A DNA stretch of 64,000 nt from Alphaproteobacteria bacterium LSUCC0396. Lineage in GTDB: Bacteria > Pseudomonadota > Alphaproteobacteria > Puniceispirillales > Puniceispirillaceae. Position numbers and translations under genes: made by a program. The stretch covers positions 744,001 through 808,000 of the forward strand of contig CP166131.1 of the NCBI GenBank assembly GCA_041228345.1, given 5' to 3'. This document shows positions 6,836 through 37,644 of the stretch, piece by piece. Numbering within the stretch: the stretch's first letter is position 1; the number at the start of each line of letters is the position of its first letter. The notes beneath the pieces are model-generated. The model searched no databases. It was given only the letters and a program-made list of their open reading frames with translations, and had not been told where the DNA came from.

Positions 6836-6847
6836 GATTACCCTCAC

Positions 6848-9726: not shown

Positions 9727-9967
9727 TATAATGCCGTTCAGTGTTTTCTTGACCGCCTACCAACCGAGATTTTAACAATCCTATCGGCATTGCAAACTCA
9801 TCCGCCTCGACGCCATGAATGCTTCCGCCGAAATAACGCCGCCTGTAAACCCTTTGTAAATCTTTTCATGTCATACTAGTGCGCAAAGGCAAAGACAGGA
9901 CAATTTACTTTACCATAGTCCACATCGTTTTACCTATGACCAACTGGATTTAGGCACTGATAACGAT

Positions 9968-10744: not shown

Positions 10745-10919
10745 GGCTGACCTTGCTGCAAATTAGCAAATGAGATCGTTGGAAAATTAATAAATCCTTA
10801 AAAAGACTGATCTAATGATGAAAAAAGCAATTTAGTAAAAAATATTCCGCATTATTAAAGGTTTTATAACTTTTCTCACATAACCTCTTTTAAAGGCTAA
10901 AAGATTCAGGAGAAGCGAC

Positions 10920-11249: not shown

Positions 11250-11457
11250 GCATTTACAAAAACTTTACCAAATACCCGTGACGCGCACGGCTGTTCCTGA
11301 CCGCTTGTCAAACACCGGCCGCCAAAAGGGTACATTGTCCGAATTGCCCTTGCATCCAATAACGCACTATGCCAAACCAAATTAGGGAAGGGTTTTCCGC
11401 AACCGCGCTTGACGTCAAACCCGTTTTCCTCAAATCAAATTCCTGATGCCGGCATCA

Positions 11458-17148: not shown

Positions 17149-18258
17149 CTAGATAAATGGTAACGAAACAATGCGGCCTGATCGCGGCCCCTCTTCCATC
17201 ATGATTTCTACCGGCTCCAGCGCATCAATCGCCGCTGTTGCAACCATGCCAACGCCAATATTCTCACCAACCCTCGGTGAGTATACACACGCACTGACAT
17301 AGCCCGCATCGGCGCCATTAAAGGTGATGGTCTGACGATCTTCACTCGTCTGCATGATCCGCGGGCTATCAATAATCAACCCCATAAAGCGGCGCGTGAC
17401 ACCCGCCCTCTTTAGCGCGATCAGCGCGTCTTTGCCAATGAAATCATGTGGCTGATCAAGCGCGATGAATTTATCCATGCCCAGCTCAAACGGGTTGGTC
17501 TTTGCGTCAGTATCGGCGCCATAGGAAATCAGGCCGCTTTCAATCCGCTCAATGTAATTGGGCGTGCCCGGCCCGATATTATAGGGCTTGCCAGCCTTGG
17601 CAACACGCGCCCACAACTCATCACCGCGATTGCCGTCACGCAGATACAGCTCATAGCCGCCCTGCTTTGACCAGCCCGACCGCGCAACCACTAGCGGAAT
17701 CCCATCGAGTTCAGTAACACGAAAACCGAAATATTTCAGCTCACGAACCCAGTCACCGAACAGATCTGAGACAACATCAATCGCCTTTGGCCCCTGAATC
17801 GCAAGTGGTGAGACATCGGGTTCGAACACATCGACATCCAGCTTTAACGTACCTGCCACCGCACTGGCCCATAATTGAATGTCACTATCGGCGATTGACA
17901 GCCAGATTTCATCCTCGGCCACCTGCAGCAGAACCGGATCATTGATAATCACGCCATTGTGATTGCACAGCGGTACATATTTGCCCTGCCCAATGACCAG
18001 ACCGTCAAGGTTGCGCGGCGTCAATAACCGCGCCAACGCCAGCGCATCCGGCCCCTTTAACGCCACCTGCCGTTCAACTGCAACATCCCACATGGCAACG
18101 CCATTAATCAGCCGGTCATATTCGGCCGCCGGATCACCATAGCTGGTTGGCATATACATATGGTTGTAAACACTTGCAGCCACCAGACCTGCGTCACGGC
18201 TTGCTTTAAAGAACGGGCTTTTGCGAACCCGCGCACCAATGGATAGATGAACCGCCAT
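17149..18258 (-). CDS. dmdA: Dimethylsulfoniopropionate demethylase DmdA
   Basis: Transfers a methyl group from DMSP to tetrahydrofolate, giving 3-methylmercaptopropionate, the first step of DMSP demethylation. It is a 369-residue GcvT-fold protein. DmdA-specific patterns known from the SAR11 enzyme are present: YNHMYMP, WDVAVERQVAL, SIADSDIQLW, AIQGPKAIDV, ELKYFGF, ARSGWSKQGGYELYL, IGPGTPNYIERIESGL and a C-terminal LPFI. These separate it from glycine cleavage T-protein. AGGGG lies about 6 bases before the ATG. It follows threonine aldolase by 120 bases; the dmdBCD genes are not nearby, as is usual. Confidence 0.92.
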   Translation of the reverse strand: MAVHLSIGARVRKSPFFKASRDAGLVAASVYNHMYMPTSYGDPAAEYDRLINGVAMWDVAVERQVALKGPDALALARLLTPRNLDGLVIGQGKYVPLCNHNGVIINDPVLLQVAEDEIWLSIADSDIQLWASAVAGTLKLDVDVFEPDVSPLAIQGPKAIDVVSDLFGDWVRELKYFGFRVTELDGIPLVVARSGWSKQGGYELYLRDGNRGDELWARVAKAGKPYNIGPGTPNYIERIESGLISYGADTDAKTNPFELGMDKFIALDQPHDFIGKDALIALKRAGVTRRFMGLIIDSPRIMQTSEDRQTITFNGADAGYVSACVYSPRVGENIGVGMVATAAIDALEPVEIMMEEGPRSGRIVSLPFI

Positions 18259-18378: not shown

Positions 18379-19431
18379 CTATTCAAAAAAATCAGCCAGC
18401 TCAGCGGTAAATTGGTCGATCGACGAGACATCAATATCAAGATGCGTGACAAGCCGAATTATCCGGTCGCCGCCGCCAAGCAGTATGCCGCGGCCGGCAA
18501 GATGCGCCCGAAGCGGGTCTGCCGCTCCCTCTGGCAACTGCATAAATACCATGTTCGTTTCAACCAGATCGGCATTAACGCTAACCTTGGCAATGCGGCC
18601 AAGCTGATCCGCAAGCCGAAGTGCCGCCGCATGGTCATCGGCTAGCCGGTCAATGTGATGCTCCAGCGCATAAAGCCCTGCTGCGGCCAGAATTCCGACC
18701 TGCCGCATACCGCCGCCAACCAGCTTTCGCATCCGGCGGGCGCGCGCAATAAATTCAGTTGATCCGACCAGCACTGACCCTGCTGGCGTTCCCAATCCTT
18801 TTGACAGGCATAAAGACACGCTATCGACCGGTTCGACTAGCTGGCGTGCAGGCACACCCAGCTTGACCGCTGCATTCATCAGCCTTGCCCCATCAAGATG
18901 TACCGCAAGCCCACTATCCCTGCCAGCACTGGCAAGGCCGGTGATGCTTGCCACATCATGCACATGACCCGAGACAGTATTTTCCAGACATAAAAGACGG
19001 CTGATCGGGCAATGCGGGTCATCCGGCTTTACCGCCTCAGTAATAGCATCAGGCTGCATCATGCCGCGATGATCAGTGGCAAGCGCCTCCATCATTACCC
19101 CACCAAGCACGGACACGCCGCCAGCCTCATAGCGGTGGACATGATAGCAATCACCAACCAGCAATTCATCACCGCGCTGACAATGCGCCAGCAATGCGCA
19201 TAGGTTGGACTGCGTTCCACTGGCAACAAACAGACCCGCTTCCTTGCCAAGAAGCGCGGCCACCTGCGCCTGCAGTGCGTTAACCGTTGGATCATCGCCA
19301 TAAACATCATCCCCAACTTCGGCAATTGCCATGGCTGCACGCATCTCTGCAGTTGGTCTGGTTACTGTGTCGCTGCGAAGGTCAATCCGCACCTTTTGAT
19401 TGGCCTGTGCCGCATCCTGATAATTCATCAT
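18379..19431 (-). CDS. ltaE: Low-specificity L-threonine aldolase
   Basis: PLP enzyme cleaving L-threonine or allo-threonine to glycine and acetaldehyde. The 350-residue protein has [32 protein letters not shown], the substrate region [12 protein letters not shown] and the PLP lysine in [17 protein letters not shown]. Its first codons overlap the end of the flavoprotein gene by four bases, so the two are probably cotranscribed. Glycine-derived one-carbon units could connect it with folate-dependent DmdA next door (inference). Confidence 0.93.
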
Positions 19432-20660
19432 TGGGATGCCTCCGCAATAAAGGTTTTCAGGTCAAAATCGGCATTGACGATTTCGTTAGGATCGGGTGAC
19501 AAGCCTAAATCAAGGCATTTCTTGCCAAGCATATAGCCTGCTGGATCACGAACCGCCTCAACCGCAGCAAGAACGCCCGCCCCATCATAACTCCAGACCG
19601 AGAATCCGCCCTCGCGCTTGCCCGGGCGCACCCGATATTGTACCCCGGGCACGGCCAAGGGCACAATCCCGGCAGATTGCAATCGCACATCAAATTGTTC
19701 TGACCAGAACCATGGTGCCGCAATTGCCGGTTGCGCCGTGTCGCAAATCGCGGCGGCGGCACGCGCTGCTGTTACTTGTGCATTATCAACAGACTCGATT
19801 CGCAACGCCGCCCCATCAATTAACGCCACATCACCAATGGCAAAAATATCATCGATTGAGCTTTGCATCATGGCATTGACAAGAATGCCATTACCGCAAG
19901 CAATCCCTGCATCGGCCGCCAGATCAAGGTCTGGCGATACGCCAATACCAACAAGCAATAAGTCAGCCTCAAGCACACCCCCGCTATCAAGCCGCACGCC
20001 GGTAAAGCTGCCATCCTTTTGCAAAATTTCATCGCTGCTGGCACCAAGGTGAAGCTGCACATCGTGGCTTTGATGTAACGCGGCAAAAAAATCTGAAATG
20101 GGCGGACTTGCTACCCGTGCCAGTAATCTGTCGGCCATTTCGATCACATCAACCTTAACACCAATTTTGGTCAGGCTGGCGGCAACCTCCAGCCCAATGT
20201 AACCGCCGCCAATCACCACTGCACGGCGCCGACCACCGATCGCCATGCGCAAACGATGCGCGTCATCTGGATGACGCAGCACAAACACTCCATCAAGCCC
20301 ACTTGCCGTGGCTAGCTGGCGCGGCACCGCACCAGTGGCAAGCACCAGCTTGTCATAATGGTGCTGGCTGCCATCATCGAGGCTTATTTGCTTTTGCAGC
20401 GGGTCGATTGCCGTTGCGATCCGGCTATCAACAAGGTCAATCTGATGCGCGGTAAACCAGTCAGATCGCCGCAATAGAAATTTTGCATCGTCGCTGCCAT
20501 CGGCCTGCAAAAACGCCTTCGACAATGGTGGGCGTTCAAGCGGCGGGCCCTCAAGCCGGTCGATCATCGTAATTTGGCCGGCGAACCCGTTCATGCGTAA
20601 TTGTTCGGCGCAGGCAATCCCCGCATGACTGGCTCCGATAATAATGACGTTATCTGACAT
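19428..20660 (-). CDS. FAD-dependent NAD(P)H:ferredoxin/rubredoxin reductase family protein
   Basis: Two-dinucleotide-domain flavoprotein of the putidaredoxin/rubredoxin reductase type, 410 residues. FAD motif [18 protein letters not shown] at the N-terminus, [11 protein letters not shown] typical of this group, the NAD motif [18 protein letters not shown] near residue 150, the IFAIGDVA motif near residue 275, and a C-terminal reductase domain. It would reduce a ferredoxin or rubredoxin with NAD(P)H. It follows the HAD gene by 26 bases, downstream of the nicotinate-type operon, whose ring reductase is expected to need reduced ferredoxin; a link is inference. Confidence 0.88.
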
Positions 20661-20686: not shown

Positions 20687-21430
20687 CTAACCGGCCAGCC
20701 GCGCCGCCATCAAGGCTGGCAACTGATCGATCCTGCCAATGACCTTAGCATGATCAATATCATGATGCGGCCGATCGTCAACATGATCGGCGACACAGAT
20801 AAAATCAGCTGCCTTTGCCGCAGTGGCGGTACCATAATCGGCCATTGTATCCCCAACCATAATGCTGGCGGCCGGCGTCACACCGGCAATCTCACAACAG
20901 CGAAAAAACCCGTGCGGCCCTGGTTTTGGCCCATAGCCACTATCCGCACCAATGATCGCACAAAAATAATCAAGGACGCCGATATCTTGCATATTCTTTC
21001 GCGCACTGTTTTCGGTATCGTTGGTCAGGATCGCCAGCGCATAGCCAGCATCATAGAGCTGGCGAAGCGGTGTCACCACGTCACCTTTCGGCACAGTTTT
21101 ATTGCGGCCGTGCAGGTTAACCAATTCCCCAACATCATGCGCATAGCCCTTGTCACTATCCAGCCTGATCATATGAGGTGGCAGCATTTTCTGCCACCGA
21201 TCTCGGATATCGGCAAAAGAACCAGCCGCAAAAATCCCCCGCGGGTCAATGATACCAGCCTCCTCGTTAATACCAATAGAGGCGAGCAATTCTGGCGCAC
21301 CCACCGATCCATCCCAATCATCGGGGATACGACTTGCAGTATAATGCGCCACCGCCAGCGCCACCGGCAACCAAGTTGCCTCAAGGTCAAGGATCACTCC
21401 ATCCTTATCAAACACAATTAAATCTATCAT
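20687..21430 (-). CDS. HAD superfamily hydrolase
   Basis: A 247-residue phosphatase-like protein. HAD motif I is FDKDGVILDLEATW, motif II AILTNDTENSAR, motif III with Lys in GYGPKPGPHGF, and motif IV VGDTMADYGTA. The DKDG (instead of DxDG) motif I keeps the nucleophile Asp. Start ATG 21430 gives the standard N-terminus; the longer upstream frame overlaps UPF0280. Substrate unknown. It follows UPF0280 by 110 bases and may belong to the same transcript. Confidence 0.88.
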   Translation of the reverse strand: MIDLIVFDKDGVILDLEATWLPVALAVAHYTASRIPDDWDGSVGAPELLASIGINEEAGIIDPRGIFAAGSFADIRDRWQKMLPPHMIRLDSDKGYAHDVGELVNLHGRNKTVPKGDVVTPLRQLYDAGYALAILTNDTENSARKNMQDIGVLDYFCAIIGADSGYGPKPGPHGFFRCCEIAGVTPAASIMVGDTMADYGTATAAKAADFICVADHVDDRPHHDIDHAKVIGRIDQLPALMAARLAG

Positions 21431-21540
21431 GATCTTATCGGAGAGCCTAAATTGGTGAGGTAATTTACGTGCGTTAGCCTGACCGATTTTCGCGCCGTGA
21501 CCAAGGGGCTTTTGCAAAAAACATTCAGCCTTTCGCCTGA

Positions 21541-22548
21541 TCAGACATTCACCACAATCGAATGCCCCTGCAACCATGCGTGCATACCAGCGATCAGCCC
21601 ATCATCACACATCTGACGGGCAAGCGCAGAACCATGGCCTAGCGCGCTGTTAATTTCATCTGCCGTCAACACGCCAACTTCAACCGTAACCAGTCGTTCT
21701 TTTAAATCACTATCTGGATATAGATCAGTTGCCGGCACCCGCAATATCGCTGGCGACGATATTGTTATCGCATTCGCAATCAGCGTTGCCGCCACATCAG
21801 CCGCCGCCGCCGTTTGGGCCAGAACTGTCACCGAATCCGCGATTCCCAATGACTGGCTGCGCCCGCGCCAACCACTTGTTGCAACCCCGCCTATGCGGTC
21901 ATGCTGATGCAGCCTGATGCGACCATGAAGAGGTAATTTGCCGCGGCCACCCGCCGTTGCAGCCACCGCAAAATCGCTTAGATGCGCATCGCGCTCATCA
22001 CCGATCCCAATGTCAAAATGCGCCGTCTTGCCAAGATAAAGCGCGATATCACCGCCATTATTTACCGATGCGCGATCAAGGTTACTCCCCATCGCTTGCA
22101 AAATCTCATCAGCAACACTTCCGGCAACTGCCGCCATTGGGGTGATAAAATCTGCGTTACTATAACGGGGTAGATGAGGCTGGATAGCCGCCGCCATACG
22201 CTGTGCAACCGGCCCGTCAAAAGTGGCAAGCCTGTCTTTTTCTGCAGGCAATCGCAGCATTGACAATTCGCCAACAAGTTCATCCAGCAAGCCGCAAAAC
22301 CTGTCAGCCGCTCGCGCGTAAGCCAGTGCTGCCGCTGCCGGATCACCCTCTGCCGTCACGATAAGGTCGATGGGCCCATGCTGAAGATGCAGCCGGTGAT
22401 CAAGCCAGTTTACCATTGCCCCGCTTGGCATTTGCAATGGCTGTCCACCCCTTTTGGGCAGTTTTACTGATATGGCTCGGGGGGTTAGCGCCTTTACAGG
22501 CTGGAGCGGCTTTGATAGCTGGGGCGGTTGGGACCGTGAGCCGGACAT
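21541..22548 (-). CDS. UPF0280 family protein (ApbE-like)
   Basis: A 335-residue protein of the uncharacterised UPF0280 family, distantly related in fold to the flavin transferase ApbE. Recognisable motifs are FITPMAAVAGSVADEIL, ASVNNGGDIALYLG and GVATSGWRGRSQSLGIAD, with ADSVTVLA after. No signal peptide. It starts three bases after the ring-reductase stop codon, so it is almost certainly cotranslated. I recall this family next to 6-hydroxynicotinate reductase and DUF1185 genes in other alphaproteobacteria. Its function is unknown; flavin attachment or metallocentre maturation would fit the fold. Confidence 0.88.
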   Translation of the reverse strand: MSGSRSQPPQLSKPLQPVKALTPRAISVKLPKRGGQPLQMPSGAMVNWLDHRLHLQHGPIDLIVTAEGDPAAAALAYARAADRFCGLLDELVGELSMLRLPAEKDRLATFDGPVAQRMAAAIQPHLPRYSNADFITPMAAVAGSVADEILQAMGSNLDRASVNNGGDIALYLGKTAHFDIGIGDERDAHLSDFAVAATAGGRGKLPLHGRIRLHQHDRIGGVATSGWRGRSQSLGIADSVTVLAQTAAAADVAATLIANAITISSPAILRVPATDLYPDSDLKERLVTVEVGVLTADEINSALGHGSALARQMCDDGLIAGMHAWLQGHSIVVNV

Positions 22549-22551
22549 AGG

Positions 22552-24051
22552 CTAGCGCCTTATCGGCCACGGGTTTTGCGGCTGTTGAGCAAAGTGTTTT
22601 TTGCCACTCAGCTTGTGATCATTCTGCCGCCCAATTTTGCCAGCCAGCACATCGTCAATCGACATCACATGATCGAGATGCCCACCAAGCGCGATATAAT
22701 CTTCCCTACGCATGGTAAATTCGATTGGTGCAACCAATGCGGGAGTCGGCACATAACCAAACGCATTTTCCGGCAGGCTAGTTACATCAACCATTAGCGT
22801 GATGCCGCCACCCGGCCAAATATAAACCGGCGCCCCGCCACACGTAACACGGGTAAGCGCATCCTTTACCGAGCGTGTCAGCATCACCGGATTTTCCGTA
22901 ACACCCGCTCGCAACGAGCCACCGGCACCGCCCATAAAGCTGACCGAAGTTAGGGCCGGTTCACAATTTTCTTCAATACGCCGGATTGATGGCTGTAATC
23001 TTTCTGGCATTTCGGTTTCTATTGGCAGCAGATTTTCATCCAGCTCGTAATAAGCAAACTGCTCGCCGGTCGTCGAGATCATCAGCAATGACTGACCCGG
23101 CTTGGCAATTTTGGCGTCAAACGGCCCCAAAATCGTCAACGGATCGGTCAGGTTTGTACCGCCCCATCCGGTGCCCGGTTCGGCAACCTGAAAATAGCGC
23201 CCGGGCGTTGATCTGCGGCCGATAATCTTAATCCCACTTGACGGCCAGCCAATAACTTTGCCGGCCTGATGCTCGGACATGACGCCGGTGATGTGATCAT
23301 CAACAATGACCACTTCGTCAACCAGCCCTTGCCATTGCGCCGCAAACATACCGACCGTCGCCGAGCCGCACCCGACCCGCATCCGCGCCTCGACAACGCC
23401 ATTAATGACTGGCGGCTTGCCAGCCTGCAACAAAAGGCTTGAGCCGTCATCAATCTGCATATCAACCGCCTCGCCATTGCACAGCGCCAGCAAAGTGGCA
23501 CAGGTAACACGGCCTTCCTTTTTACCGCCGCCGGTAAGGTGATGCACCCCACCCAAAGACAGCATTTGCGACCCATATTCACCGGTTGTTACATGGCCAA
23601 CCGGTTCACCATCAACCCGAACCAGCGCGGTTTCAGGGCCAATATGCCGGTCGGTGTCGATTTTAACCTTGGCGCCGCAATAGCTGAAAATCCCTTCAGA
23701 CACCACCGTGACCATATCCACGCCGTCAACAACACTGCTGACGATAAACGGCGCCGGCTTGTAATCGGGATAGGTCGTCCCCGCACCAACCGCGGTTACA
23801 AAGGCGTCCTGTGGGGCGATCAGATCACCATTCCAATCATCCGCATTATCCAGAAACGGCACCAACTGGCCGCCATCATCAATCCGGCGTTGCATCACCA
23901 GCAACGGATCAAGCCTTACAAGCTGGCCGCCATCATTTGCATAGCGATCACACGCCCCCGATTTACCATCGGCGATGTAACACATCACCGGACAGGCATC
24001 ACAGCGGATCTTTTCTTCAACGCGCTTGTCACGGCTGGTTTTCATTGTCAT
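22552..24051 (-). CDS. hnr: 6-hydroxynicotinate reductase family protein
   Basis: Family of the ferredoxin-dependent enzyme (EC 1.3.7.1) that reduces 6-hydroxynicotinate to 1,4,5,6-tetrahydro-6-oxonicotinate. The 499-residue protein has an N-terminal Fe-S cysteine set, C17, C20, C24 and C34 (CDACPVMC then GACDRY), and family features such as TTYPDYKPAPFIVSSVVDG, EYGSQMLSLGGVHHLTGGGK and EFTMRREDYIALGGH. It overlaps the molybdenum hydroxylase stop by four bases and is followed by UPF0280. The neighbouring enamidase makes the assignment specific to a nicotinate-type ring. Confidence 0.88.
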   Translation of the reverse strand: MTMKTSRDKRVEEKIRCDACPVMCYIADGKSGACDRYANDGGQLVRLDPLLVMQRRIDDGGQLVPFLDNADDWNGDLIAPQDAFVTAVGAGTTYPDYKPAPFIVSSVVDGVDMVTVVSEGIFSYCGAKVKIDTDRHIGPETALVRVDGEPVGHVTTGEYGSQMLSLGGVHHLTGGGKKEGRVTCATLLALCNGEAVDMQIDDGSSLLLQAGKPPVINGVVEARMRVGCGSATVGMFAAQWQGLVDEVVIVDDHITGVMSEHQAGKVIGWPSSGIKIIGRRSTPGRYFQVAEPGTGWGGTNLTDPLTILGPFDAKIAKPGQSLLMISTTGEQFAYYELDENLLPIETEMPERLQPSIRRIEENCEPALTSVSFMGGAGGSLRAGVTENPVMLTRSVKDALTRVTCGGAPVYIWPGGGITLMVDVTSLPENAFGYVPTPALVAPIEFTMRREDYIALGGHLDHVMSIDDVLAGKIGRQNDHKLSGKKHFAQQPQNPWPIRR

Positions 24052-26807
24052 GCCTGATCGCCTCCGGCTGCAGTCAGCGCCGCGATTGCCGCGCGCACCT
24101 TATCCGGCGTTGCGGGCAAATCATAGATGGCCGCACCGGTTGCATGGCGGATCGCATTCAAGATTGCCGGCGCGGTCGGGATCAGCACATGCTCGCCCAG
24201 CCCCTTGGCACCATAAGGGCCTTCTTCGTCAGCCACCTCGACAATGATATGCTCAAATTCGGGCATATCGCCAATTGTCGGGATCAAATAATCATGCAAA
24301 TTCTCGGTTCGTCCGGGCTGATAATCTTCCATTAACGCCATGCCAATCCCCTGACCAACGCCGCCCTCTATCTGGCCCTCGACCAAAAGGGGGTTGATCG
24401 CACGCCCGACATCATGGGCGGTTGTGATTTTATCCAGCCGCACCCGACCCAGTGCCATATCAACCGACAATTCAACAATCTGTGCACCGTAACCAAACAC
24501 CGCATAGGGAATGCCCTGCCCCTTTTCATCAAGCGGACTGGTCGGCGGATCATAGGTTTCCTCGGCCATAAAGACATAGCCATATTCATTTACCGGCAGC
24601 CCTGCCAATTCAACCCGAACCGCCCCACCAGCGGCATCCTCTAGCCGCAAAGTTGCGCCATCAAGACTGATCTTGGCGTCAGCATCAACATTGCCATGCC
24701 GCAGCAATTTCCAGCGCAACGCCATACCCGACAGCATGGCTGCCTTGCCTGACACAAATGTCTGGCGCGACGCCGAGGTTTTGCCGCAATCAGGCGTTAA
24801 ATCGGTATCGCCCCCAACAATCTTTAGATCATGAACAGCAACACCAAGCGCATCCGCAGCAATTTGGCTAATCACCGTATTCGCGCCCTGCCCGATATCC
24901 ATTGCCCCTTGATGCAGGACAACCTGTCCATCGCTGGTGATGCCCATGCGCATCGTCGACGGGTTTGGCAATGATGTGTTGCCGCATCCATACCAGCAGC
25001 TGGCGATACCGACACCTTTGCGCCATGGGCTGGCATCCTCTAGCGCTGCCGCATTAAATTGATCTGCCGCGCCCAGCGCGTGCTGCCAGCTGTCTTCAAG
25101 GGCGGCAAAGCAATCGTCGATACCAACACCGCTGTTAAAGACTTGACCCGTGACGGTTGGCACACCATTTTTCAGCGCGTTCAGCCGCCGAAATGCCAGC
25201 CGGTCCATGCCAATTTTTTCCGCCAGCAAATCATAGGCGCATTCCTGTGCCACGGCTGATTGCGGGACACCAAATCCGCGAAACGCACCGGCTGGCGGGG
25301 CATTGGTATGAACGGCAACAGAATTGGCGCGGTAATCCTTTGTTTGATAGGGCCCGCTTGCATGAATGGGAACACGGTTCGCCACCGTCGGCCCCCAGCT
25401 GGCATAGGCACCCGTGTTAAAGACACCATCAAAAACAAAGCCGCTGATCCGGCCAGTTTCATCACAGCCAACTTGCAACCGGATATCCGACGGATGCCGC
25501 TTGGTCGACGCACGCATCGACTCGCCGCGGCTGTAGCAAATTCGCACCGGTCGCCCCAGAACCCACGCTGCCAGCGCGATATAAGGCTGAAACGATATAT
25601 CCAGTTTTGATCCAAAGCCGCCACCACAGGCTGATGGCACCACCCGAATAGCCTCACGCTCCATCGCCATAATCTCGGCTAGGCTGTCGCGATCCATCTG
25701 CGCGGCTTGCGTGCAACCACGAATAACCAGACGATTGCCCTCACGCATCGCATAACCGGCCTCAGGCTCGATATAGGCATGTTCGATAAACGGCGTTGTT
25801 GTATGAATTTCTGCAAGATGCGCCGCCGCCCGCAACGCCGCATCTGCGTCGCCAGTTTCGACATAGCCGCGCACCAGAATATTGCCATCACGGCTTTCAT
25901 GCAGTTTTGGCGCCCCGTCAGCCATCGCCTGTGCCGGTGATAACATGGTGTCATGCGGCGTCCATGTAATCGGGAAATCAGCGTCATCAAAATGCGTAAT
26001 CACCGCCGCATCACCAACAATGGCTGCCACCGCATCGCCGCGGTAAAGCGCGGTCTTTTCCGCAAACACCGGCTGGTCGGCGAATGGCGGGATCACACCA
26101 AAACAATTGCGACCCGGAACATCACTGGCATCAAGAACGGCATGAATACCCGGATGGCGCGCAAGAAATGCGGCCTTATCGCCAATTTCAAAACTACTAT
26201 AATGATAGGGGCTGCGGATGACCCGCACCAGCAGCGCATCTGACGGCACCGCATCATCACCATAACGCAGGCTGCCATCAACCTTTGGCTGGCCATCAAG
26301 ATGCCTGATAGCACTGCCAACATTTTGTCCAGCCTGCGGACAAACTGGGGCGACCACATCATGGCCAACCGCCACGATCGCATCAATGATCTTGCTATAG
26401 CCCGTACATCGACATAAAACCCCGCCCAGCGCATCCTCGACCGCACGCCTATCTGGTGCCTGATTATCCGCCAGCAACGCCGCCGCAGACACCATCATAC
26501 CCGGGGTGCAAATACCGCATTGCGCCGCACCATGCGCCAGAAAACTATCCTGCAATTTTGCGATAATACCGGCATCATGCAGGCCTTCAATACTAGTCAC
26601 GTTGGCGCCGTCAACCTGTGCAACCGCGGTCAGGCAACTGCAAATTGGCGCGCCATCAAGAAGCACACTACACGCCCCGCAATCACCAGCATTACAGCCT
26701 ACCTTGGTGCCATAAAGCCCCATTTCATCACGAAGAACCTCGCTAAGGCGCGTTCCCGCCGGTAATTCGCTGGCAACAGCGCGGCCATTCAAGGTAAATC
26801 GCGTCAT
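24048..26807 (-). CDS. Molybdenum hydroxylase, fused 2Fe-2S and molybdopterin subunit (nicotinate/xanthine dehydrogenase family)
   Basis: Hydroxylates an N-heterocycle next to the ring nitrogen; here probably nicotinate to 6-hydroxynicotinate. The 919-residue chain is a fusion. Residues 1-150 hold two 2Fe-2S centres (GCNAGDCGACSVLLDGAPIC, and CGICTPGMM with CRCTGYSKI). The rest is the molybdopterin subunit with GGGFGSK near residue 400, GAFRGFGVPQSA, MDIGQGANT and the catalytic glutamate in GAKGLGEH near the C-terminus. The fusion resembles E. coli XdhD; Eubacterium nicotinate dehydrogenase has separate chains. It overlaps both neighbours by four bases. Substrate is inferred from hnr and ena. 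Confidence 0.88.
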   Translation of the reverse strand: MTRFTLNGRAVASELPAGTRLSEVLRDEMGLYGTKVGCNAGDCGACSVLLDGAPICSCLTAVAQVDGANVTSIEGLHDAGIIAKLQDSFLAHGAAQCGICTPGMMVSAAALLADNQAPDRRAVEDALGGVLCRCTGYSKIIDAIVAVGHDVVAPVCPQAGQNVGSAIRHLDGQPKVDGSLRYGDDAVPSDALLVRVIRSPYHYSSFEIGDKAAFLARHPGIHAVLDASDVPGRNCFGVIPPFADQPVFAEKTALYRGDAVAAIVGDAAVITHFDDADFPITWTPHDTMLSPAQAMADGAPKLHESRDGNILVRGYVETGDADAALRAAAHLAEIHTTTPFIEHAYIEPEAGYAMREGNRLVIRGCTQAAQMDRDSLAEIMAMEREAIRVVPSACGGGFGSKLDISFQPYIALAAWVLGRPVRICYSRGESMRASTKRHPSDIRLQVGCDETGRISGFVFDGVFNTGAYASWGPTVANRVPIHASGPYQTKDYRANSVAVHTNAPPAGAFRGFGVPQSAVAQECAYDLLAEKIGMDRLAFRRLNALKNGVPTVTGQVFNSGVGIDDCFAALEDSWQHALGAADQFNAAALEDASPWRKGVGIASCWYGCGNTSLPNPSTMRMGITSDGQVVLHQGAMDIGQGANTVISQIAADALGVAVHDLKIVGGDTDLTPDCGKTSASRQTFVSGKAAMLSGMALRWKLLRHGNVDADAKISLDGATLRLEDAAGGAVRVELAGLPVNEYGYVFMAEETYDPPTSPLDEKGQGIPYAVFGYGAQIVELSVDMALGRVRLDKITTAHDVGRAINPLLVEGQIEGGVGQGIGMALMEDYQPGRTENLHDYLIPTIGDMPEFEHIIVEVADEEGPYGAKGLGEHVLIPTAPAILNAIRHATGAAIYDLPATPDKVRAAIAALTAAGGDQA

Positions 26808-27691
26808 GCCTGCGCCTCATTCGCAACAAAGGCCAGCTGATCACGAACCAGCCGCTGTACAATTTCGCATGACGCCTCCAGCCGGTAAGCCGCTGTTGCG
26901 CGCACATCATCAATTGGCGAAAGACCAGTGAAAAGATCCGGGATAATCTTGCTGGCGGCCGCGGTTAATGCTGTTCCGCGCAATGCCGCTTCAACACCGC
27001 CCATACGCTGGGCGACCTCACTGCAGGCACCGATCGCCAGCGCGACATCTTCAATAACACCAGCATCATCAACCACCAGTCGTAACGCTGCCATACTGAT
27101 CGAAATCACCAGATAGGAACGTGCGCCAAGCTTTCGAAACCCCGACCGGCCAGCAGCTGACGCGCCGGGAATCCGCAAGGCACTTACCATCTCGCCAGCC
27201 CCAAGCGCGGTTTTCCGATTACCCAATATAAACGCCGATAAAGGCAGGTGGCGCATTCCAGCTGCACCGACAATTTCCACCTCTGCATCTAGCGTCAGTA
27301 ACGGCGGCACACCATCAGCCGCAGGCGACGCGTTACAAAGATTGCCAATAATCGTTGCGCGGTTCTGGATTTGCACCGAGCCGACTTCGCGCGCCGCCGC
27401 CTTTAACCCATCAAAGGCCGCTGGCACATCAGCCTTTAGCAATTTGCTCCAGCTTGCCGCCGCACCAATGCGCCAATAGCTGCCGTCAAAGGCAATTGCG
27501 CCAAGTGCGGGAATCCCCGATATATCAAGAACAGGGCCGCTTAGCGGGCGATCTTGCAAGCGTGGAAACACATCGGTTCCGCCGGCAAGAATGGTTTTCG
27601 GGCCGGTGGACAATGCGGCAATCGCGCTCTCTAGGCTATCTGCCCGCACATAATCACCGATCCCGCCATCAGCAGCTAGCCTATCTTGCAT
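26804..27691 (-). CDS. Molybdenum hydroxylase FAD-binding subunit
   Basis: The 295-residue FAD subunit of the xanthine dehydrogenase family (CoxM/CutM type). The FAD motifs are TILAGGTDVFPRLQ at about residue 34 and NRATIIGNLCNASPAADGVP at about residue 112, with a CO_deh_flav_C-like end. GGAGAAATC precedes the ATG. The ATGA overlap with the large subunit indicates equimolar translation. Together these two chains form one hydroxylase. Confidence 0.9.
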   Translation of the reverse strand: MQDRLAADGGIGDYVRADSLESAIAALSTGPKTILAGGTDVFPRLQDRPLSGPVLDISGIPALGAIAFDGSYWRIGAAASWSKLLKADVPAAFDGLKAAAREVGSVQIQNRATIIGNLCNASPAADGVPPLLTLDAEVEIVGAAGMRHLPLSAFILGNRKTALGAGEMVSALRIPGASAAGRSGFRKLGARSYLVISISMAALRLVVDDAGVIEDVALAIGACSEVAQRMGGVEAALRGTALTAAASKIIPDLFTGLSPIDDVRATAAYRLEASCEIVQRLVRDQLAFVANEAQA

Positions 27692-27750
27692 TGATTTCTC
27701 CGCACCACAGCCCCAGTTCGTACCCCAGCCTCGACTTGAAAAACCTAACC

Positions 27751-29472
27751 TTAGTGGCTATGCGCATCCATCAAATTCTGCATCGCAATATTCACTTCAC
27801 GGCTGTAAAGACGCGCCATTTTACCGGTTGGTGGCAGCGGCTCGTCGCGGAAAAATGATGGCAATTCATCATCGTCCTGATCAAACCCTGCGGCCTTGTT
27901 GAACGCCGCCTCAAGCCGCAATGTCTCAAAGCCGATATTACGGATAAAGTCAGGGGTCACACCAGCGTCAAACGAGTCATTAATCGCATCGGCAATCAGC
28001 GTCAGATTATCGTCGGTAACCGACCGGCCGAACACGCAAAGACCGAACGAGTCAGCGACCGCGCTGTTAATCTGCATTCGCAAGCTTTCGGCAACCAATT
28101 CTTCAATCGTCTTATCATCACATTTGAACGATGGTGCGTTACCAACCGTATGATCAGCACCTTGCGCGGTCAGCATCATTGAAATGCCGGTAACCTCGAT
28201 GATCCGCGGATCATAGGCGCTGATCGCCTGCTGTTTGATAACCGGCACCCGCGCAACCTTCAGCGCCTTGCCAACCCGCGCCGTACCCGACGCATAAAGC
28301 CGCCCACGCTCATTGCCAACCCGAATATCCTCAAGGCAGGATTGCATAAATGCCACATCGCCAAATGCGCCTTCGCCAGCCTCCATTAAAACACCGATTG
28401 TCGCGCCAAGCTCGATACTGTCGACGCCAAGATCATTTGCCGTCTCGTTCAACCTTGCCACATCATCCGGATCATCAAGTCCGCAATTGGTACCCAGCAA
28501 GCCAATGGTTTCATATTCCAGCGGCGAGACAAGTTCACGCCCAGTATCATCGACATAGACATTGCTGCATTTAATCAGGCATCCAGGCATACAAGCGTGC
28601 GATGTCTCACCGCCGCGACCACCATTCAGGTCGCGTATAAAGTCACCACCCATTCGAAGCGGCCCATCATCAGCACCGGTTAATTGCCCAGATGAGAAAT
28701 TACGCACCGGCAAGGCGCCTAGATGGTTGGTAAGGTCAGCAACCATCGCTGTTCCCGTGGTTTTCAGGCTTTGTACCGCAACAGACTCGCCAAGCTTCTT
28801 GCCATAATCCTTGATCGCGCCCATTAATTTTTTACGGTTATTCACCGGCGGCATACGGTCCTTGTCAATAACGACAGCCTTGATTTTCTTGGCACCCATT
28901 ACCGCGCCAACACCGCCGCGCGCGGCCAAACGTGACGGCCGGTTATCGGTATCGGAAAAGGCCACCCCAGCCATCAGCCCAAGATATTCACCAACCGGCC
29001 CACACAGCGCCAACGACGTTTTGTCTCCATAAGCCTCATGCAGCTTTCGCGCACAATCGAAATTACCCAACCCCATATAGGGCGTCGCATCATCAAAGCT
29101 AATCACGCCATCCTTGGTGATACGGATCACAACCCATGTATCACTGGCGCCTTGAAACGTAATGCCGGCAATCAGCAACTGCCCCATCGCAAAGCCAAAT
29201 GTCCCACCACTATTGGCCTCTTTGACGCCGCCAGTTAACGGGCTTTTGCAGCCAACACTGAGCCGGTTTGCATTGGAAAAATTTGTTCCAGCAAATGGCC
29301 CAACCGAAAAAATTAACGGGTTTTCCGGTGCCATCGGATCGACTGTAGCTATATTTTGATCGAGCAGCATCCGCGCGATCAGATATCGTCCGGACTTGGC
29401 AATCTCACGCCCAGACAAATCACGGCTGGCAGTGGTTTTCTTACCAAGATCTATTGTGATAAATTTGCGCAT
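27751..29472 (-). CDS. Aldehyde:ferredoxin oxidoreductase (tungsten-type AOR family)
   Basis: Oxidises an aldehyde to a carboxylic acid and reduces ferredoxin, using a tungsto- or molybdopterin. The 573-residue protein has AOR hallmarks: GPFAGTNFSNANRLSVGCKS, KEANSGGTFGFAM, ARGGVGAVMGAKKIKAVV, and a 4Fe-4S set with C294, C298, C302 and the distal C479 (FGLCVFG). ATG 29472 was chosen because AGGA is 6 bases before it; the ATG two codons earlier abuts the AGGA. It lies between enamidase and the hydroxylase. A likely substrate is 2-formylglutarate, the enamidase product (inference). Confidence 0.9.
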   Translation of the reverse strand: MRKFITIDLGKKTTASRDLSGREIAKSGRYLIARMLLDQNIATVDPMAPENPLIFSVGPFAGTNFSNANRLSVGCKSPLTGGVKEANSGGTFGFAMGQLLIAGITFQGASDTWVVIRITKDGVISFDDATPYMGLGNFDCARKLHEAYGDKTSLALCGPVGEYLGLMAGVAFSDTDNRPSRLAARGGVGAVMGAKKIKAVVIDKDRMPPVNNRKKLMGAIKDYGKKLGESVAVQSLKTTGTAMVADLTNHLGALPVRNFSSGQLTGADDGPLRMGGDFIRDLNGGRGGETSHACMPGCLIKCSNVYVDDTGRELVSPLEYETIGLLGTNCGLDDPDDVARLNETANDLGVDSIELGATIGVLMEAGEGAFGDVAFMQSCLEDIRVGNERGRLYASGTARVGKALKVARVPVIKQQAISAYDPRIIEVTGISMMLTAQGADHTVGNAPSFKCDDKTIEELVAESLRMQINSAVADSFGLCVFGRSVTDDNLTLIADAINDSFDAGVTPDFIRNIGFETLRLEAAFNKAAGFDQDDDELPSFFRDEPLPPTGKMARLYSREVNIAMQNLMDAHSH

Positions 29473-29533
29473 CTTCATTCCTGTTCGGCAATATCATGCC
29501 TCAAAACAATGCCGGATACCCAGCGTTAATTCG

Positions 29534-29549
29534 TTTGTATACTAACAAA
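29534..29549. promoter_or_regulatory. Inverted repeat upstream of the AOR gene
   Basis: TTTGT and ACAAA flank ATACTA, forming a 5-base inverted repeat that also contains the palindrome GTATAC at 29537-29542. It lies about 60 bases before the AOR start in a 220-base gap after enamidase. This could be an operator for the MarR regulator; weak evidence. Confidence 0.35.
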
Positions 29550-29692
29550 AATACTTCGTCTTGTAAAGACAATCCGGTAGAGCATTTTCATATGAACAGA
29601 TTTCCGCCAGCGCCATTGTCTGCTGCGCGTCATATACCAATCGGTTTATATTCTGGTTCATCACGAATCGCCGCGAGATGATTATTCGATGA

Positions 29693-30862
29693 TCATTCAA
29701 GAACTTCCGGCAAATTAGTCGCTGGCGGGGTATTACGGCTGCGATTGGTGCGCACAATACCGTCGATAATCGTCATTCCAACACCGGGCAAATTACCCTG
29801 ATGGATACTTTCTAGCATATTACGGCCCGGCGCGTGCTGGGCGGTGTCCATAAGCACAAAATCGGCGCTGCGACCAATTTCGACAATGCCACAATCAAGG
29901 TCACGCATCCGCGCAGTATTGCCGGTGGCAAAACAAAAGGCGATTTCCGGCGGGATATCACCGAGGCTCGACAGCATCGCGATCATCCGCAAGATGCCCA
30001 GCGGCTGTACACCAGAACCGGCCGGCGCATCAGTGCCAAGGATAACACGTTCCGACTGCTTAATTTCAAAGGCAGTTCGCATCGCCAGCAAACCAGCGCG
30101 CTCATTCCCATTATGCACAATCTCGATCCCGCGACTGCAACTTTCGCAAAGGCAGGTGATCTGATCATCGGGGAGCGCGGTATGGCCGCCATTGATATGA
30201 CCGATGATGTCAGCATCAGCCTCCAGCACAACATCCTTGTCAATCAGACCCGACCCAGGAATCGACGGCCCACCGGTATGAATGGTCGACTGAATACCAT
30301 ATTTACGCGCCCATTTGACCATCTGTGCAGCGGTTTCGCCAGCCTTGACCGAACCAAGCCCAACCTCACCGAGCAGCTTGACGCCAGCATCCGCCAGCTC
30401 TTTAAAATCAGACTCAACCATGCCATCCTCGATCACCGGCGCTCCTGCCAGCATCTTAACACCCGAAGGACGGAAATTTTCGTACCAGCGCTGCGAGGCA
30501 ATCGCCATCGCCTTTAATCCGACAATATCTTTCGGCCGCCCAGGGGCGTGAACCTCACCGGCTGAAATCATCGTTGTGACACCGCCATGCAGGCAGGAGT
30601 CAATCCAGTTCAATTGCTGTTGCCGCGGCGTATAATCGCCAATCACCGGATGCACATGGCTGTCGATTAGGCCCGGCGTCAGCGTCACACCATGTGCATG
30701 AACCCGCACCGTGGCATTGTCCAAATCCATATCCTTGGCATAGCCGATATCGGTAATCCGGCCATCAACCGCAACCACGCAATCACCATCAAGAATGGGC
30801 GCCTCCAGCTTACCCGACAGGATCTGGCCGATATTGGTAATAACAAGCTTTTCTGATGCCAT
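29693..30862 (-). CDS. ena: Enamidase (amidohydrolase superfamily)
   Basis: Converts 1,4,5,6-tetrahydro-6-oxonicotinate to 2-formylglutarate and ammonia. The 389-residue protein resembles Eubacterium barkeri enamidase closely in motif order: TPGLIDSHVHPVIGDYTPRQ (metal HxH), LHGGVTTMISAGEVHAPGRP then KDIVGLKAMAI, GEVGLGSVK, IHTGGPSIPGS, the metal Asp in ILGTDAPAGSG, and C-terminal SRNTPPA. ATG 30862 has GAGGGA 8 bases upstream and is preferred over a TTG five codons earlier. First gene of the minus-strand catabolic run, 203 bases after the MarR gene. Confidence 0.88.
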   Translation of the reverse strand: MASEKLVITNIGQILSGKLEAPILDGDCVVAVDGRITDIGYAKDMDLDNATVRVHAHGVTLTPGLIDSHVHPVIGDYTPRQQQLNWIDSCLHGGVTTMISAGEVHAPGRPKDIVGLKAMAIASQRWYENFRPSGVKMLAGAPVIEDGMVESDFKELADAGVKLLGEVGLGSVKAGETAAQMVKWARKYGIQSTIHTGGPSIPGSGLIDKDVVLEADADIIGHINGGHTALPDDQITCLCESCSRGIEIVHNGNERAGLLAMRTAFEIKQSERVILGTDAPAGSGVQPLGILRMIAMLSSLGDIPPEIAFCFATGNTARMRDLDCGIVEIGRSADFVLMDTAQHAPGRNMLESIHQGNLPGVGMTIIDGIVRTNRSRNTPPATNLPEVLE

Positions 30863-31065
30863 GATTTTGTCCCTCAATATTTTTGCCGAAACCGCTTAAC
30901 AGTCTGTTCACCCAGATTTATGACCTTTTATTGCTAGCATAAACACCAGTCTTTTAGGCCGCATTGATAACACGCACTCACCTTATTATTAGTCAGCAAT
31001 CCTGTGGCGCCGGTCAAGATCGTTATTTAACCCTCTTCATCTCAAAAACGTGCTCAGACATCCCG

Positions 31066-31521
31066 TCATTGCTGAAGCTTATCCAGCAGCGTTAAGAGCT
31101 GTGCAACTTCACGCGAGGTCAGTCTTTCGGTGGTTTCTTTGGTGATATCTTTTGCCGTGATTATGGCTGCCTCTACCGCCGCCTGACCGACATCGGTCAG
31201 TGAAATCTGGAGGCGGCGCATATCATCCGTATCCTGGCGCGCCCTCAGCAATCCGCGATCCATCAGGCGGGCAATCACCCCCTTGGTCGTTGCTGCATCC
31301 ATCGCAACAAGGCGGCCAAGCTGATTTTGTGATACTTCCCCAACTTCCCGAAGTCGCACCAAAACAGAGAATTGCGTTGGTGTTATATCCGGCAGCTGCC
31401 GCGAAAAAATCTCCAGATGACGCTGGCTAGCCAGCCGCAGCTTGTAACCTACCTGATCATCAAGCTGATAATCATCGGCCAGAGATTTTGCCGAAACACC
31501 GCGAGAATCACCAACAGTCAT
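31066..31521 (-). CDS. MarR-family regulator (NicR-like)
   Basis: A 151-residue winged-helix protein. The N-terminal stretch DDQVGYKLRLASQRHLEIF, then LTPTQFSVLVRLREVGEVSQ-like helices, NQLGRLVAMDAATTKGVIAR as recognition helix and the wing. This pattern is close to NicR, the MarR repressor of Pseudomonas nicotinate genes, as I remember it. It sits directly upstream of enamidase on the same strand and divergent from DUF1185, ideally placed to control both. The ligand is inferred to be a pathway intermediate such as 6-hydroxynicotinate. Confidence 0.87.
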   Translation of the reverse strand: MTVGDSRGVSAKSLADDYQLDDQVGYKLRLASQRHLEIFSRQLPDITPTQFSVLVRLREVGEVSQNQLGRLVAMDAATTKGVIARLMDRGLLRARQDTDDMRRLQISLTDVGQAAVEAAIITAKDITKETTERLTSREVAQLLTLLDKLQQ

Positions 31522-31706
31522 AACAAAACCAGATCCAGTTCAGCCCCGAAAAAACGCCACGATACCGCAACACATTCAAGGTGTAACATTGGCACATCAA
31601 AAAAGCCAGACTTGAAAATATAAGTTAATTTCAACAATTAACCGCATCGTAACGGCGCGTTTTCATGCCGCAGATCCACTAAAATATCCTTTGACAGCAA
31701 ACGATA

Positions 31707-31732
31707 TTTATCTTTTGATCAGGAAAGATAAA
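31707..31732. promoter_or_regulatory. Perfect 9-bp inverted repeat between MarR and DUF1185
   Basis: TTTATCTTT (31707-31715) and AAAGATAAA (31724-31732) are exact reverse complements around TGATCAGG, which contains the palindrome TGATCA. A further ATCAAAGAT at 31733-31741 overlaps the end of the repeat and mirrors ATCTTTTGAT. This is a good operator candidate for the MarR protein in the 303-base divergent region; I see nothing else definite there. Confidence 0.55.
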
Positions 31733-31824
31733 ATCAAAGATCACCGCAAATGCCCCTAAATAGTCATCGCTAGCTATCAATGGGCATGAGTGGTGGCGAC
31801 TGGCGAAAATTGGGGATGCAGCTT

Positions 31825-32412
31825 ATGGTATTAGCCAAAATTCGGAAAATTGTGACGATTGTCGAGGACACACACCAAGAGGCAGGACAGGACATCACCC
31901 CGCCTACCCGCCGTGCGGCGGCAATTGCCGTGATCGAAAACCCTTATGCGGGCATCTATGAAGAAGACCTTGAGACACTAATGGCCATCGGCGAAGAGCT
32001 TGGCGGATTACTTGGCGAGCGGTGCGTTGCCGCGCTTGGCATTGAACCACAGGCGGCAGAGAGCTATGGCAAGGCGGCGATTGTCGGCGAAAATGGCGAG
32101 CTTGAGCATGCCGCGGCGATCCTGCATCCACGCCTTGGCAAACCGTTACGCGCGGCAGTGGAAAAAGGTGCTGCACTCGTGCCATCAAATAAAAAACGCG
32201 GTGGCATGGGGCATCCGATTGATGTGCCCCTTGGCCATAAGGATGCCGCCTATGTACGGTCACATTTTGACGGTATGGAAGTCAGTGTGAATGATGCGCC
32301 GCGCGCCAATGAAATTCTGGTCGCTGTGGCGGTGACAGATTCGGGACGGCCACTACCGCGTGTTGGCGGCCTGACGCATGATCAGGCAGACGGCAAGGAT
32401 GGCCTGCGCTAG
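31825..32412 (+). CDS. DUF1185 (AA_synth) family protein
   Basis: A 195-residue member of the family called amino acid synthesis (DUF1185), whose biochemical role is unproven. Conserved family stretches are KIRKIVTIVEDTHQEAG, ENPYAGIYEEDLETLM, YGKAAIVGENGELEHAAAIL, HPIDVPLGHKDAAYVRSHFD and a final GRPLPRVGGL. Start ATG 31825 matches the family N-terminus; frame is open back to an ATG at 31780. GGGGA lies 10 bases upstream. It is divergent from the MarR gene, and its association with 6-hydroxynicotinate reductase and UPF0280 suggests a role in the same pathway. Confidence 0.83.
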   Translation: MVLAKIRKIVTIVEDTHQEAGQDITPPTRRAAAIAVIENPYAGIYEEDLETLMAIGEELGGLLGERCVAALGIEPQAAESYGKAAIVGENGELEHAAAILHPRLGKPLRAAVEKGAALVPSNKKRGGMGHPIDVPLGHKDAAYVRSHFDGMEVSVNDAPRANEILVAVAVTDSGRPLPRVGGLTHDQADGKDGLR

Positions 32413-34297: not shown

Positions 34298-34942
34298 TTA
34301 AGCAGTGACGATAGACCCCCGCTCAATCGTATATGTACGATCTATAACGTCCGACACATGTGCATCGTTTGACTCAGCGATGATAATTGACACACCCTCT
34401 CGCTTTAGAGACGCAAGAATTTCACCCATTCTAAGCGCTAGAACTGGCGCTATGCCCTCTGTAGGCTCATCAAGAAGCAAAAGTTTTTGTCCAACCATCA
34501 ATGCCCGAGCGAGTGCTACCAACTTCTGTTGACCGCCGGATAATGATGTAGCCGCCATCTCTCTAAATCCTTTACACTCAGGAATGATTTCATAAATCCA
34601 CGACAGCCGCCCCTCATATCCTTGTATATTGGTTGACCATACCGGCACTAAAATATTTTCTTCAGCCGTCATCTCAGGAACCAGACGTCTATCCTCAGGC
34701 ATGTAACCTATCCCCATATGAGCGCGGCGATATCCAGGAGTGGACTCTAAAGCTTCAGCCTCAAACACAAACTTTCCACCGCGGATCGGCAAAAGACCCA
34801 TCAGAGACCTAAGAAAAGTTGTCTTACCAGCCCCATTTCGGCCGATTAAACCCACTATCTCACCAGATTCAATTTCTAAACCAATGTCTCGTAATATTGG
34901 CGTTCCATTTATATCAACATCAAGACCATCCACTTTCAACAT
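34298..34942 (-). CDS. livF: Branched-chain-type ABC transporter ATP-binding protein LivF
   Basis: ATPase of a HAAT-family importer. The 214-residue protein is slightly short but complete: Walker A LIGRNGAGKTTFLRSLMGLL, signature SLSGGQQKLVALARAL, Walker B LLLLDEPTEGI. Last transporter gene, 20 bases after livG. The region 34.3-38.9 kb is visibly AT-richer than its flanks and uses more AGA, TCT and CTA codons. Confidence 0.93.
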   Translation of the reverse strand: MLKVDGLDVDINGTPILRDIGLEIESGEIVGLIGRNGAGKTTFLRSLMGLLPIRGGKFVFEAEALESTPGYRRAHMGIGYMPEDRRLVPEMTAEENILVPVWSTNIQGYEGRLSWIYEIIPECKGFREMAATSLSGGQQKLVALARALMVGQKLLLLDEPTEGIAPVLALRMGEILASLKREGVSIIIAESNDAHVSDVIDRTYTIERGSIVTA

Positions 34943-34962
34943 AACTAAATCTGCCTCTTGCT

Positions 34963-36653: not shown

Positions 36654-36654
36654 A

Positions 36655-37551: not shown

Positions 37552-37604
37552 ATTAGTCGCCCCCAAAAGAAATAAATCAAAGTTCGAGAAAATCTAAAAT
37601 CGCC

Positions 37605-37622
37605 AGGGCACAAAGTGGCCCT
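37605..37622 (-). terminator. Intercistronic stem-loop between livK and livH
   Basis: AGGGCAC (37605-37611) pairs with GTGGCCCT (37615-37622) with one bulged base and a three-base loop. On the minus strand it is followed by T-rich sequence. It sits just after the livK stop, as expected for a partial terminator or RNA-stabilising element that keeps binding-protein levels above those of the permeases. Confidence 0.5.
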
Positions 37623-37644
37623 AGCGATTGCCCTTATTTACGGT

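Follow-up and report, generated by a model that had tools for sequence, protein, structure and literature searches.

A probable gene cluster for reductive nicotinate catabolism in the alphaproteobacterium LSUCC0396

The genome of Alphaproteobacteria bacterium LSUCC0396 is a single contig of 2.59 Mb, and we analyzed a 64,000-nucleotide stretch of it (contig CP166131.1, positions 744,001 to 808,000 of the forward strand; hereafter the window, numbered from its first letter) that carries a gene cluster resembling those for the breakdown of nicotinate through 6-hydroxynicotinate. Between positions 20687 and 32412, genes on the minus strand encode an enamidase, an aldehyde:ferredoxin oxidoreductase (AOR), a two-chain molybdenum hydroxylase, a predicted 6-hydroxynicotinate reductase (HNR), a UPF0280 protein, and a HAD phosphatase; a MarR gene precedes them, and the AA_synth (DUF1185) gene is divergent (Table 1). 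All of the genes named in an earlier note on this DNA proved to be intact open reading frames (ORFs). The gene content that it gave for the cluster also stood, but the limit that it set at 20687 did not, as the co-directional run reaches 17149 with three more genes on the same strand. From the AOR gene to the DmdA-like gene at the end of the run there are eight gaps, seven of 59 bases or fewer (four of them overlaps) and a last one of 120 bases; the gap between the enamidase and AOR genes is 214 bases.

Table 1. Features of the LSUCC0396 cluster and its surroundings (positions in the window)
Feature	Position	Strand	Evidence
Enamidase	29693..30877	-	354.5 bits to PDB 2vun; 45% identity; tree
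Aldehyde:ferredoxin oxidoreductase (AOR), probably tungsten or molybdenum	27751..29478	-	AFOR_N + AFOR_C; PDB 1aor 175 bits
FAD chain of molybdenum hydroxylase, 295 aa	26804..27691	-	FAD_binding_5 126 bits
Fused [2Fe-2S] + molybdopterin chain, proposed nicotinate 6-hydroxylase, 919 aa	24048..26807	-	Fer2, Fer2_2, MoCoBD_1, MoCoBD_2
Predicted 6-hydroxynicotinate reductase (HNR), type lacking a 2x[4Fe-4S] ferredoxin domain	22552..24051	-	42% to Eubacterium barkeri locus L023; tree; motif count
UPF0280 protein, distant ApbE relative, putative HNR partner	21541..22548	-	NCBIfam NF003322, 326 bits, cut-off 290; co-distribution with HNR
HAD-family phosphatase	20687..21577	-	PF00702 74 bits
Ferredoxin-reductase-like flavoprotein	19428..20660	-	Pyr_redox_2 + Reductase_C; HcaD/AndAa-type models below cut-off
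GntG/threonine-aldolase-type pyridoxal phosphate enzyme	18379..19431	-	NF041359 433 bits, cut-off 230
DmdA-like (GcvT family) paralogue, last gene of co-directional run	17149..18258	-	NF009133 384 bits, cut-off 410; PDB 3tfh 292 bits
MarR regulator of BpsR type, probable 6-hydroxynicotinate sensor	31066..31521	-	Pfam MarR 42.3 bits, cut-off 24.6; BpsR PDB matches
TTTGACAGCAAAC block, TTTG-N4-CAAA inverted repeat, candidate operator	31690..31702	+	Conservation in relatives
AA_synth / DUF1185, type II	31780..32412	+	PF06684 247.7 bits, cut-off 27; PDB 2qtp 317 bits
Branched-chain-type ABC transporter + binding protein, candidate uptake system	34298..38937	-	ORFs; homologues in relatives

The close agreement with the E. 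barkeri enamidase (2vun) that the earlier note had read from motifs held up in a search of the PDB, where the runner-up scored 28.4 bits and where H65, H67, E162, H191, H218, and D274 of the 2vun fragment, which we take to be metal ligands, are all identical in the window protein. On this unmistakable homology the gene is an enamidase, predicted to hydrolyze 1,4,5,6-tetrahydro-6-oxonicotinate. A genome scan with the enamidase as the query confirmed at least 572 stretches, the best 80 of which correspond to 79 loci, that of E. barkeri itself (L023) among them; the loci considered here were gathered through enamidase or HNR searches, and counts of them measure linkage rather than prevalence. In an enamidase tree of 107 rows (short-flank loci L102 to L131, ten further loci, rows of fewer than 330 residues, and identical copies having been left out), the window protein fell inside a mostly alphaproteobacterial clade of 34 rows (SH-aLRT 100), 19 of which have an HNR gene within 9 kb. 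Where an enamidase locus has no HNR gene nearby, the gene usually lies elsewhere in the genome: HNR was present in 10 of 12 other genomes with a close enamidase (65 to 84% identity; G187 and G456 are without it) and in one of four genomes that have a distant paralogue only. Distant paralogues (34 to 41%) were seen at 13 loci. One of these is in the LSUCC0396 genome itself (L152, positions 454-12507, at about C1:335-347 kb), where a second enamidase-like gene (38%) has its own AA_synth gene and stands beside a phage-type integrase gene and a gene for a 2019 aa Calx-beta/LapA protein.

The HNR protein matched no Pfam or NCBIfam family, and a 10-row alignment that includes it contains many invariant columns. 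Our HNR tree comprised 78 rows, 20 short-flank loci of the window's order (L003 to L022) having been left out from among 97 HNRs. It placed the window protein in a clade of 27 rows (100/100) made up of alphaproteobacterial and two acidobacterial clusters, Afipia included; the remaining 51 rows form the other side, labelled anaerobe by its loci, with some archaeal, actinobacterial, or armatimonad members. The earlier note had named grouping with enzymes of another substrate as what would speak against its reading of the enamidase and the reductase; instead, both proteins fell among the alphaproteobacterial clusters. As for the molybdenum hydroxylase, its large chain scored 218, 200, and 113 bits against three chains of PDB 3hrd, the E. 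barkeri nicotinate dehydrogenase.

The regulator of the cluster had been called NicR-like. It does belong to the MarR family, but it is BpsR-like. BpsR contacts 6-hydroxynicotinate with Tyr15, His23, Arg26, and His32, which according to PMC6837509 are not conserved in NicR; the window protein has Tyr18, Tyr26, Arg29, and His35 in these places, so that three of the four are retained. BpsR entries 6pcp and 6pco ranked second and third among its PDB matches, at 75 and 74 bits. The Tyr, Arg, and His contacts recur in 21 of 22 regulators of HNR or enamidase loci (homologues of at least 38% identity and more than 60% coverage; weaker ones, such as that of Aminobacter at 34%, were left out), and the second position is H, F, or Y. 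The MarR protein is probably a 6-hydroxynicotinate-responsive repressor of the BpsR type. The candidate operator TTTGACAGCAAAC has its sole match in the window in the region between the MarR and AA_synth genes; the block is common to loci L137 and L138 and occurs in L155 with one base changed. Beside it, at 31707-31732, lies a perfect 9-base inverted repeat, TTTATCTTT-N8-AAAGATAAA.

We also surveyed the 121 genomes of the window's order, 40 of which have HNR. Both HNR and a nicotinamidase (a match of 215.6 bits, cut-off 174) are encoded in 15 genomes, within 5 kb of each other in six (including one with a split HNR) and on different contigs in nine. Nicotinamidase stands with a type-I AA_synth, and without an enamidase, in the HNR clusters L153, L154, and L136; L134 has type I but no nicotinamidase adjacent to it. 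At L153 the HNR cluster also adjoins genes for an ADP-ribosylglycohydrolase, a PfkB kinase, and a solute-binding protein, a setting that suggests the use of products of NAD breakdown. The linkage bears on whether a different N-heteroaromatic acid is degraded, for example picolinate or homarine (its N-methyl derivative), by the same types of enzyme acting on the 2-carboxy isomer. The HNR-UPF0280-molybdenum hydroxylase module accompanies other hydrolases in sister genera and so may be re-used, and a homarine catabolism paper of 2026 is cited in PMC13390433. We considered homarine or picolinate first and set it aside on the 6-hydroxynicotinate pocket of the regulator and the nicotinamidase genes adjoining HNR in sister genera; the cluster is also close to nicotinate clusters of the Afipia type. 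None of the papers listed in our literature searches gave a gene-level account of the breakdown of such a substrate, the main text of PMC12262181 does not contain the string "nicotin," and SAR116 is not mentioned among the best matches of a literature survey. We regard a 2-carboxy substrate as very improbable.

Taken together, the co-occurrence of the molybdenum hydroxylase, HNR, and enamidase, their trees, the BpsR-type pocket, and nicotinamidase beside HNR support the reductive nicotinate pathway that the earlier note had proposed, and we conclude that the cluster is very probably a catabolic operon for nicotinate that follows the reductive route. The molybdenum hydroxylase (24048-27691) would convert nicotinate to 6-hydroxynicotinate. 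HNR (22552-24051) would reduce this product to 1,4,5,6-tetrahydro-6-oxonicotinate, with ferredoxin as the probable donor and with UPF0280 maturing or assisting the enzyme. The enamidase (29693-30877), with AA_synth as its assumed helper, would then yield ammonium and 2-formylglutarate. This aldehyde, or the semialdehyde that remains after decarboxylation, would be oxidized to glutarate, probably by AOR, whose reduced ferredoxin could return to the HNR step; glutarate would be activated and then oxidized by a glutaryl-CoA dehydrogenase encoded elsewhere in the genome. The first three steps are predicted from homology, trees, and synteny; what AOR acts on, the return of ferredoxin to HNR, the functions given to AA_synth and UPF0280, and the enzyme that activates glutarate with CoA are inferences.

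Several observations weigh against this reading. The evidence is computational throughout. The best single PDB chain for the molybdenum hydroxylase is the aldehyde oxidoreductase 1dgj (356 bits), and its best NCBIfam models are xanthine-dehydrogenase-like and all below cut-off. The best PDB match of the regulator is 2nnn, an uncharacterised Pseudomonas regulator (112 bits) with Tyr at the His32 place, and the regulator itself has Tyr26 where BpsR has His23. Nicotinamidase is widespread in the order, with 56 of 121 genomes encoding it (41 of them without HNR); it is found in one of the 14 genomes of the window's genus, and is missing from that of LSUCC0396. Sister genera have HNRs 63 to 72% identical to that of the window, and of the 27 genomes with HNR that fall outside the genus of the window, many of them incomplete (G001 is one contig at 100%), none has a close enamidase. 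AOR is rare: of the 88 enamidase loci of at least 15 kb, just 6 have it. No CoA-transferase acting on glutarate was identified in the genome.

The rarity of AOR also favors the view that AOR, the HAD phosphatase, the aldolase, the ferredoxin reductase, and the DmdA-like protein are bystander neighbors, the pathway proper consisting of the molybdenum hydroxylase, HNR, UPF0280, enamidase, and AA_synth; none of these neighbors carries a label in the E. barkeri or Afipia loci. We hold this to be possible but doubtful. The gene order is kept in L138 and in the more distant L155 (81% HNR), where the ferredoxin-reductase-like, aldolase, and DmdA-like genes also adjoin the cluster, and there are overlaps and short gaps within the run. 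AOR, furthermore, recurs next to the enamidase in two other alphaproteobacterial lineages (L150/L161 and L156), with homologues of 61 to 76% identity. Both AFOR_N and AFOR_C were matched by the window AOR at 176 bits each, and it probably oxidizes the aldehyde to glutarate and could couple this oxidation to HNR via ferredoxin. A clear glutaryl-CoA dehydrogenase encoded in the genome (C1:1024134-1025342) speaks for glutarate as the end point, one of the two ends that the earlier note had suggested. We sought this gene first next to CoA-transferases and did not find it there; it was located by a short motif and then confirmed by a PDB search (595 bits to 3gnc). In Azorhizobium, decarboxylation is said (Kitts and coworkers, 1992) to come first, followed by oxidation to glutarate.

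The window HNR has neither of the two N-terminal [4Fe-4S] motifs of E. barkeri HNR. These motifs are present in 49 of the 97 HNRs, all on the anaerobe side, and absent from the other 48, among which L025 is truncated by the end of its locus and L078 is the sole further row of that side. The missing ferredoxin domain is common to the whole proteobacterial-type clade and thus marks an HNR sub-type, members of which are already named HNR in the literature. Since it lacks the motifs, the window HNR would probably need a separate ferredoxin, and either the ferredoxin-reductase-like protein or AOR, both encoded in the window, could be what supplies it in reduced form. The AlphaFold model of HNR (mean pLDDT 54) was too poor for a fold search.

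The constant companion of HNR is UPF0280. In the window's order it is encoded in 41 genomes (12 of which pass the curated cut-off of the model), namely all 40 with HNR and one draft genome in which it is a 60-residue fragment; the count is of genomes that share ancestry, not of independent events. Among the 94 loci of at least 15 kb, 61 of the 62 that have HNR also have UPF0280, and 56 have the enamidase; in loci of any length, 86 of 95 HNR-UPF0280 pairs lie on the same strand and less than 300 bases apart. UPF0280 was present in 2 of 14 control genomes, both of them methanogens, and must therefore have other uses too. The E. barkeri UPF0280 reached the Pfam ApbE model at 29.3 bits (cut-off 25.6); that of the window reached no Pfam model, and its sequence matched nothing in the PDB at E 0.01. 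This kinship, together with a covalent flavin reportedly carried by E. barkeri HNR (Alhapel and coworkers, 2006), gave rise to the idea that UPF0280 inserts flavin. That it acts as an ordinary ApbE is weakened by the absence of the motifs involved: the canonical target motif D-x-x-[ST]-G-A-[ST] (PMC12052999) occurs in none of 98 HNRs, and a rough pattern for the ApbE catalytic His fits 1 of 91 UPF0280s. The best matches of a literature survey on HNR and ApbE do not mention 6-hydroxynicotinate reductase, and UPF0280 is not mentioned in what a survey on DUF1185 and UPF0280 terms returned.

AA_synth is encoded in 74 of the 88 enamidase loci of at least 15 kb and, near the 13 distant enamidase paralogues, lies within 104 bases in five, further off in two, and out of view in six. 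Its predicted structure (pLDDT 84) gave Foldseek matches at E 0.001 or better for the two DUF1185 entries only. In VIA-align it resembled Rid proteins (Z 5.7-6.8), Toblerone cyclic-amide hydrolases (Z 5.7-6.4), chorismate mutases (Z 5.5-6.1), and PurM/SelD/ThiL-type proteins (Z up to 6.7); because these matches are tied and below Z 8, a hydrolase role is suggested but not shown. We propose that AA_synth may be a hydrolase or deaminase that helps the enamidase. DUF1185 was earlier conjectured to serve amino-acid metabolism on the strength of neighboring branched-chain ABC genes (PMC2954203); transporters of this type accompany several nicotinate-type clusters too, and homologues of the window transporter (51 to 64% identity) are found in the enamidase-less clusters L132, L133, and L135.

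These last belong to the sister genera, where the pathway may differ at ring opening. A close enamidase is encoded in 11, and HNR in 13, of the 14 genomes of the window's genus; in the 27 HNR genomes beyond it, a 36 to 39% paralogue is present in three. The presence of HNR therefore does not by itself define the complete pathway. The HNR clusters L133 (7325-18478) and L135 encode a hydantoinase A/B pair together with a permease of the BenE type, and the L132 stretch ends before the place of the pair; possibly these clusters use a different lactam-opening step. A weaker pair (30 to 34%) lies near HNR at L198, in a genome that has an enamidase. A conserved 182 aa ORF beside the nicotinamidase in L153 was considered as a ring opener and rejected, as it matches no Pfam family and looks membrane-anchored. 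The data do not decide whether, in enamidase-less clusters, the ring is opened by other enzymes or the substrates are others. One tentative scheme would make UPF0280 an obligate partner in HNR maturation or assembly, perhaps installing a covalent flavin non-canonically, and AA_synth a Rid- or cyclic-amide-hydrolase-like protein whose action either opens the pyridine ring after its reduction or sets its ammonium free, with type-I AA_synth or an ATP-dependent hydantoinase pair taking over in sister genera, so that the ring-opening modules would be exchangeable; we think it rather less probable than otherwise that all of this is right.

The natural input could also be trigonelline (N-methylnicotinate), demethylated to nicotinate, in which case the cluster would be the lower half of an osmolyte pathway and the DmdA-like protein the demethylase of the window strain. 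A Rieske/VanA_C oxygenase is encoded in or beside the alphaproteobacterial HNR clusters L150, L161, L194, L195, L196, and L100 (43%), and weakly L197 (36%), and the gene run of the window closes with a DmdA-like paralogue that is not the best DmdA of the genome. No such Rieske protein was found at E 1e-30 in the LSUCC0396 genome or in three other genomes of the genus that were searched, and the folate-dependent demethylation of a pyridinium methyl group is a conjecture; we judge a trigonelline input improbable, though less so than a 2-carboxy substrate. These oxygenase genes, among them those at L150 (6820-7878) and L161 (17351-18547), are candidates for a trigonelline N-demethylase. Elsewhere in the LSUCC0396 genome, a clear DmdA scores 559 bits and a third copy 376 bits against the same model as the window gene.

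If nicotinate is indeed the substrate, bacteria with small genomes, probably marine, can use vitamin B3 as a source of carbon and nitrogen through an oxygen-sparing reductive route, which would matter for competition in seawater over B vitamins and pyridine osmolytes. This route is already known from a soil anaerobe and root-nodule bacteria, and the LSUCC0396 cluster is probably a further example of it. For specialists, the points of interest are the helper proteins, the way in which the HNR sub-type is supplied with ferredoxin, and the sister clusters that have no enamidase. The comparison also yields testable roles for UPF0280 and DUF1185, which go with the pathway in lineages ranging from archaea and clostridia to alphaproteobacteria.

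The E. barkeri locus (L023) has counterparts of the core proteins of the LSUCC0396 cluster, with identities of 42% for HNR, 33% for UPF0280, 31% for the FAD chain, 42, 32, and 38% for the Mo/FeS chains, 45% for the enamidase, and 51% for AA_synth. Since it includes UPF0280 and AA_synth, neither is a local oddity. It also holds genes of the lower fermentation pathway (a B12-binding mutase and PrpF-like, lyase-like, and hydroxyisobutyrate-dehydrogenase-like proteins). Thus, whereas E. barkeri combines an HNR that has both [4Fe-4S] motifs with a B12 mutase and lyase, LSUCC0396 combines an HNR that has neither with AOR and a glutaryl-CoA dehydrogenase.

A conserved cluster has also been mapped in Bradyrhizobiaceae strain SG-6C, Azorhizobium caulinodans, Bradyrhizobium, and Rhodopseudomonas; SG-6C grows on nicotinate and 6-hydroxynicotinate with transient 6-hydroxynicotinate, and the glutarate route is cited for Azorhizobium (PMC3511419). 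In Bordetella, BpsR, a regulator of the nic locus that is homologous to the window regulator over nearly its whole length, represses nicC and nicE (PMC6837509). We made the comparison with Azorhizobium-type clusters through a metagenome genome of Afipia (L101) rather than the strains of PMC3511419. The window proteins are 69% (HNR), 73% (enamidase), 73% (AA_synth), and 50% (UPF0280) identical to those of Afipia, and the two clusters are alike in their BpsR-type MarR regulator and ABC transporter. They differ in that Afipia has two AA_synth copies and, as in L163, a ferredoxin-NADP-reductase-like gene beside the enamidase, whereas LSUCC0396 has a single AA_synth gene, AOR, and a ferredoxin reductase of another kind.

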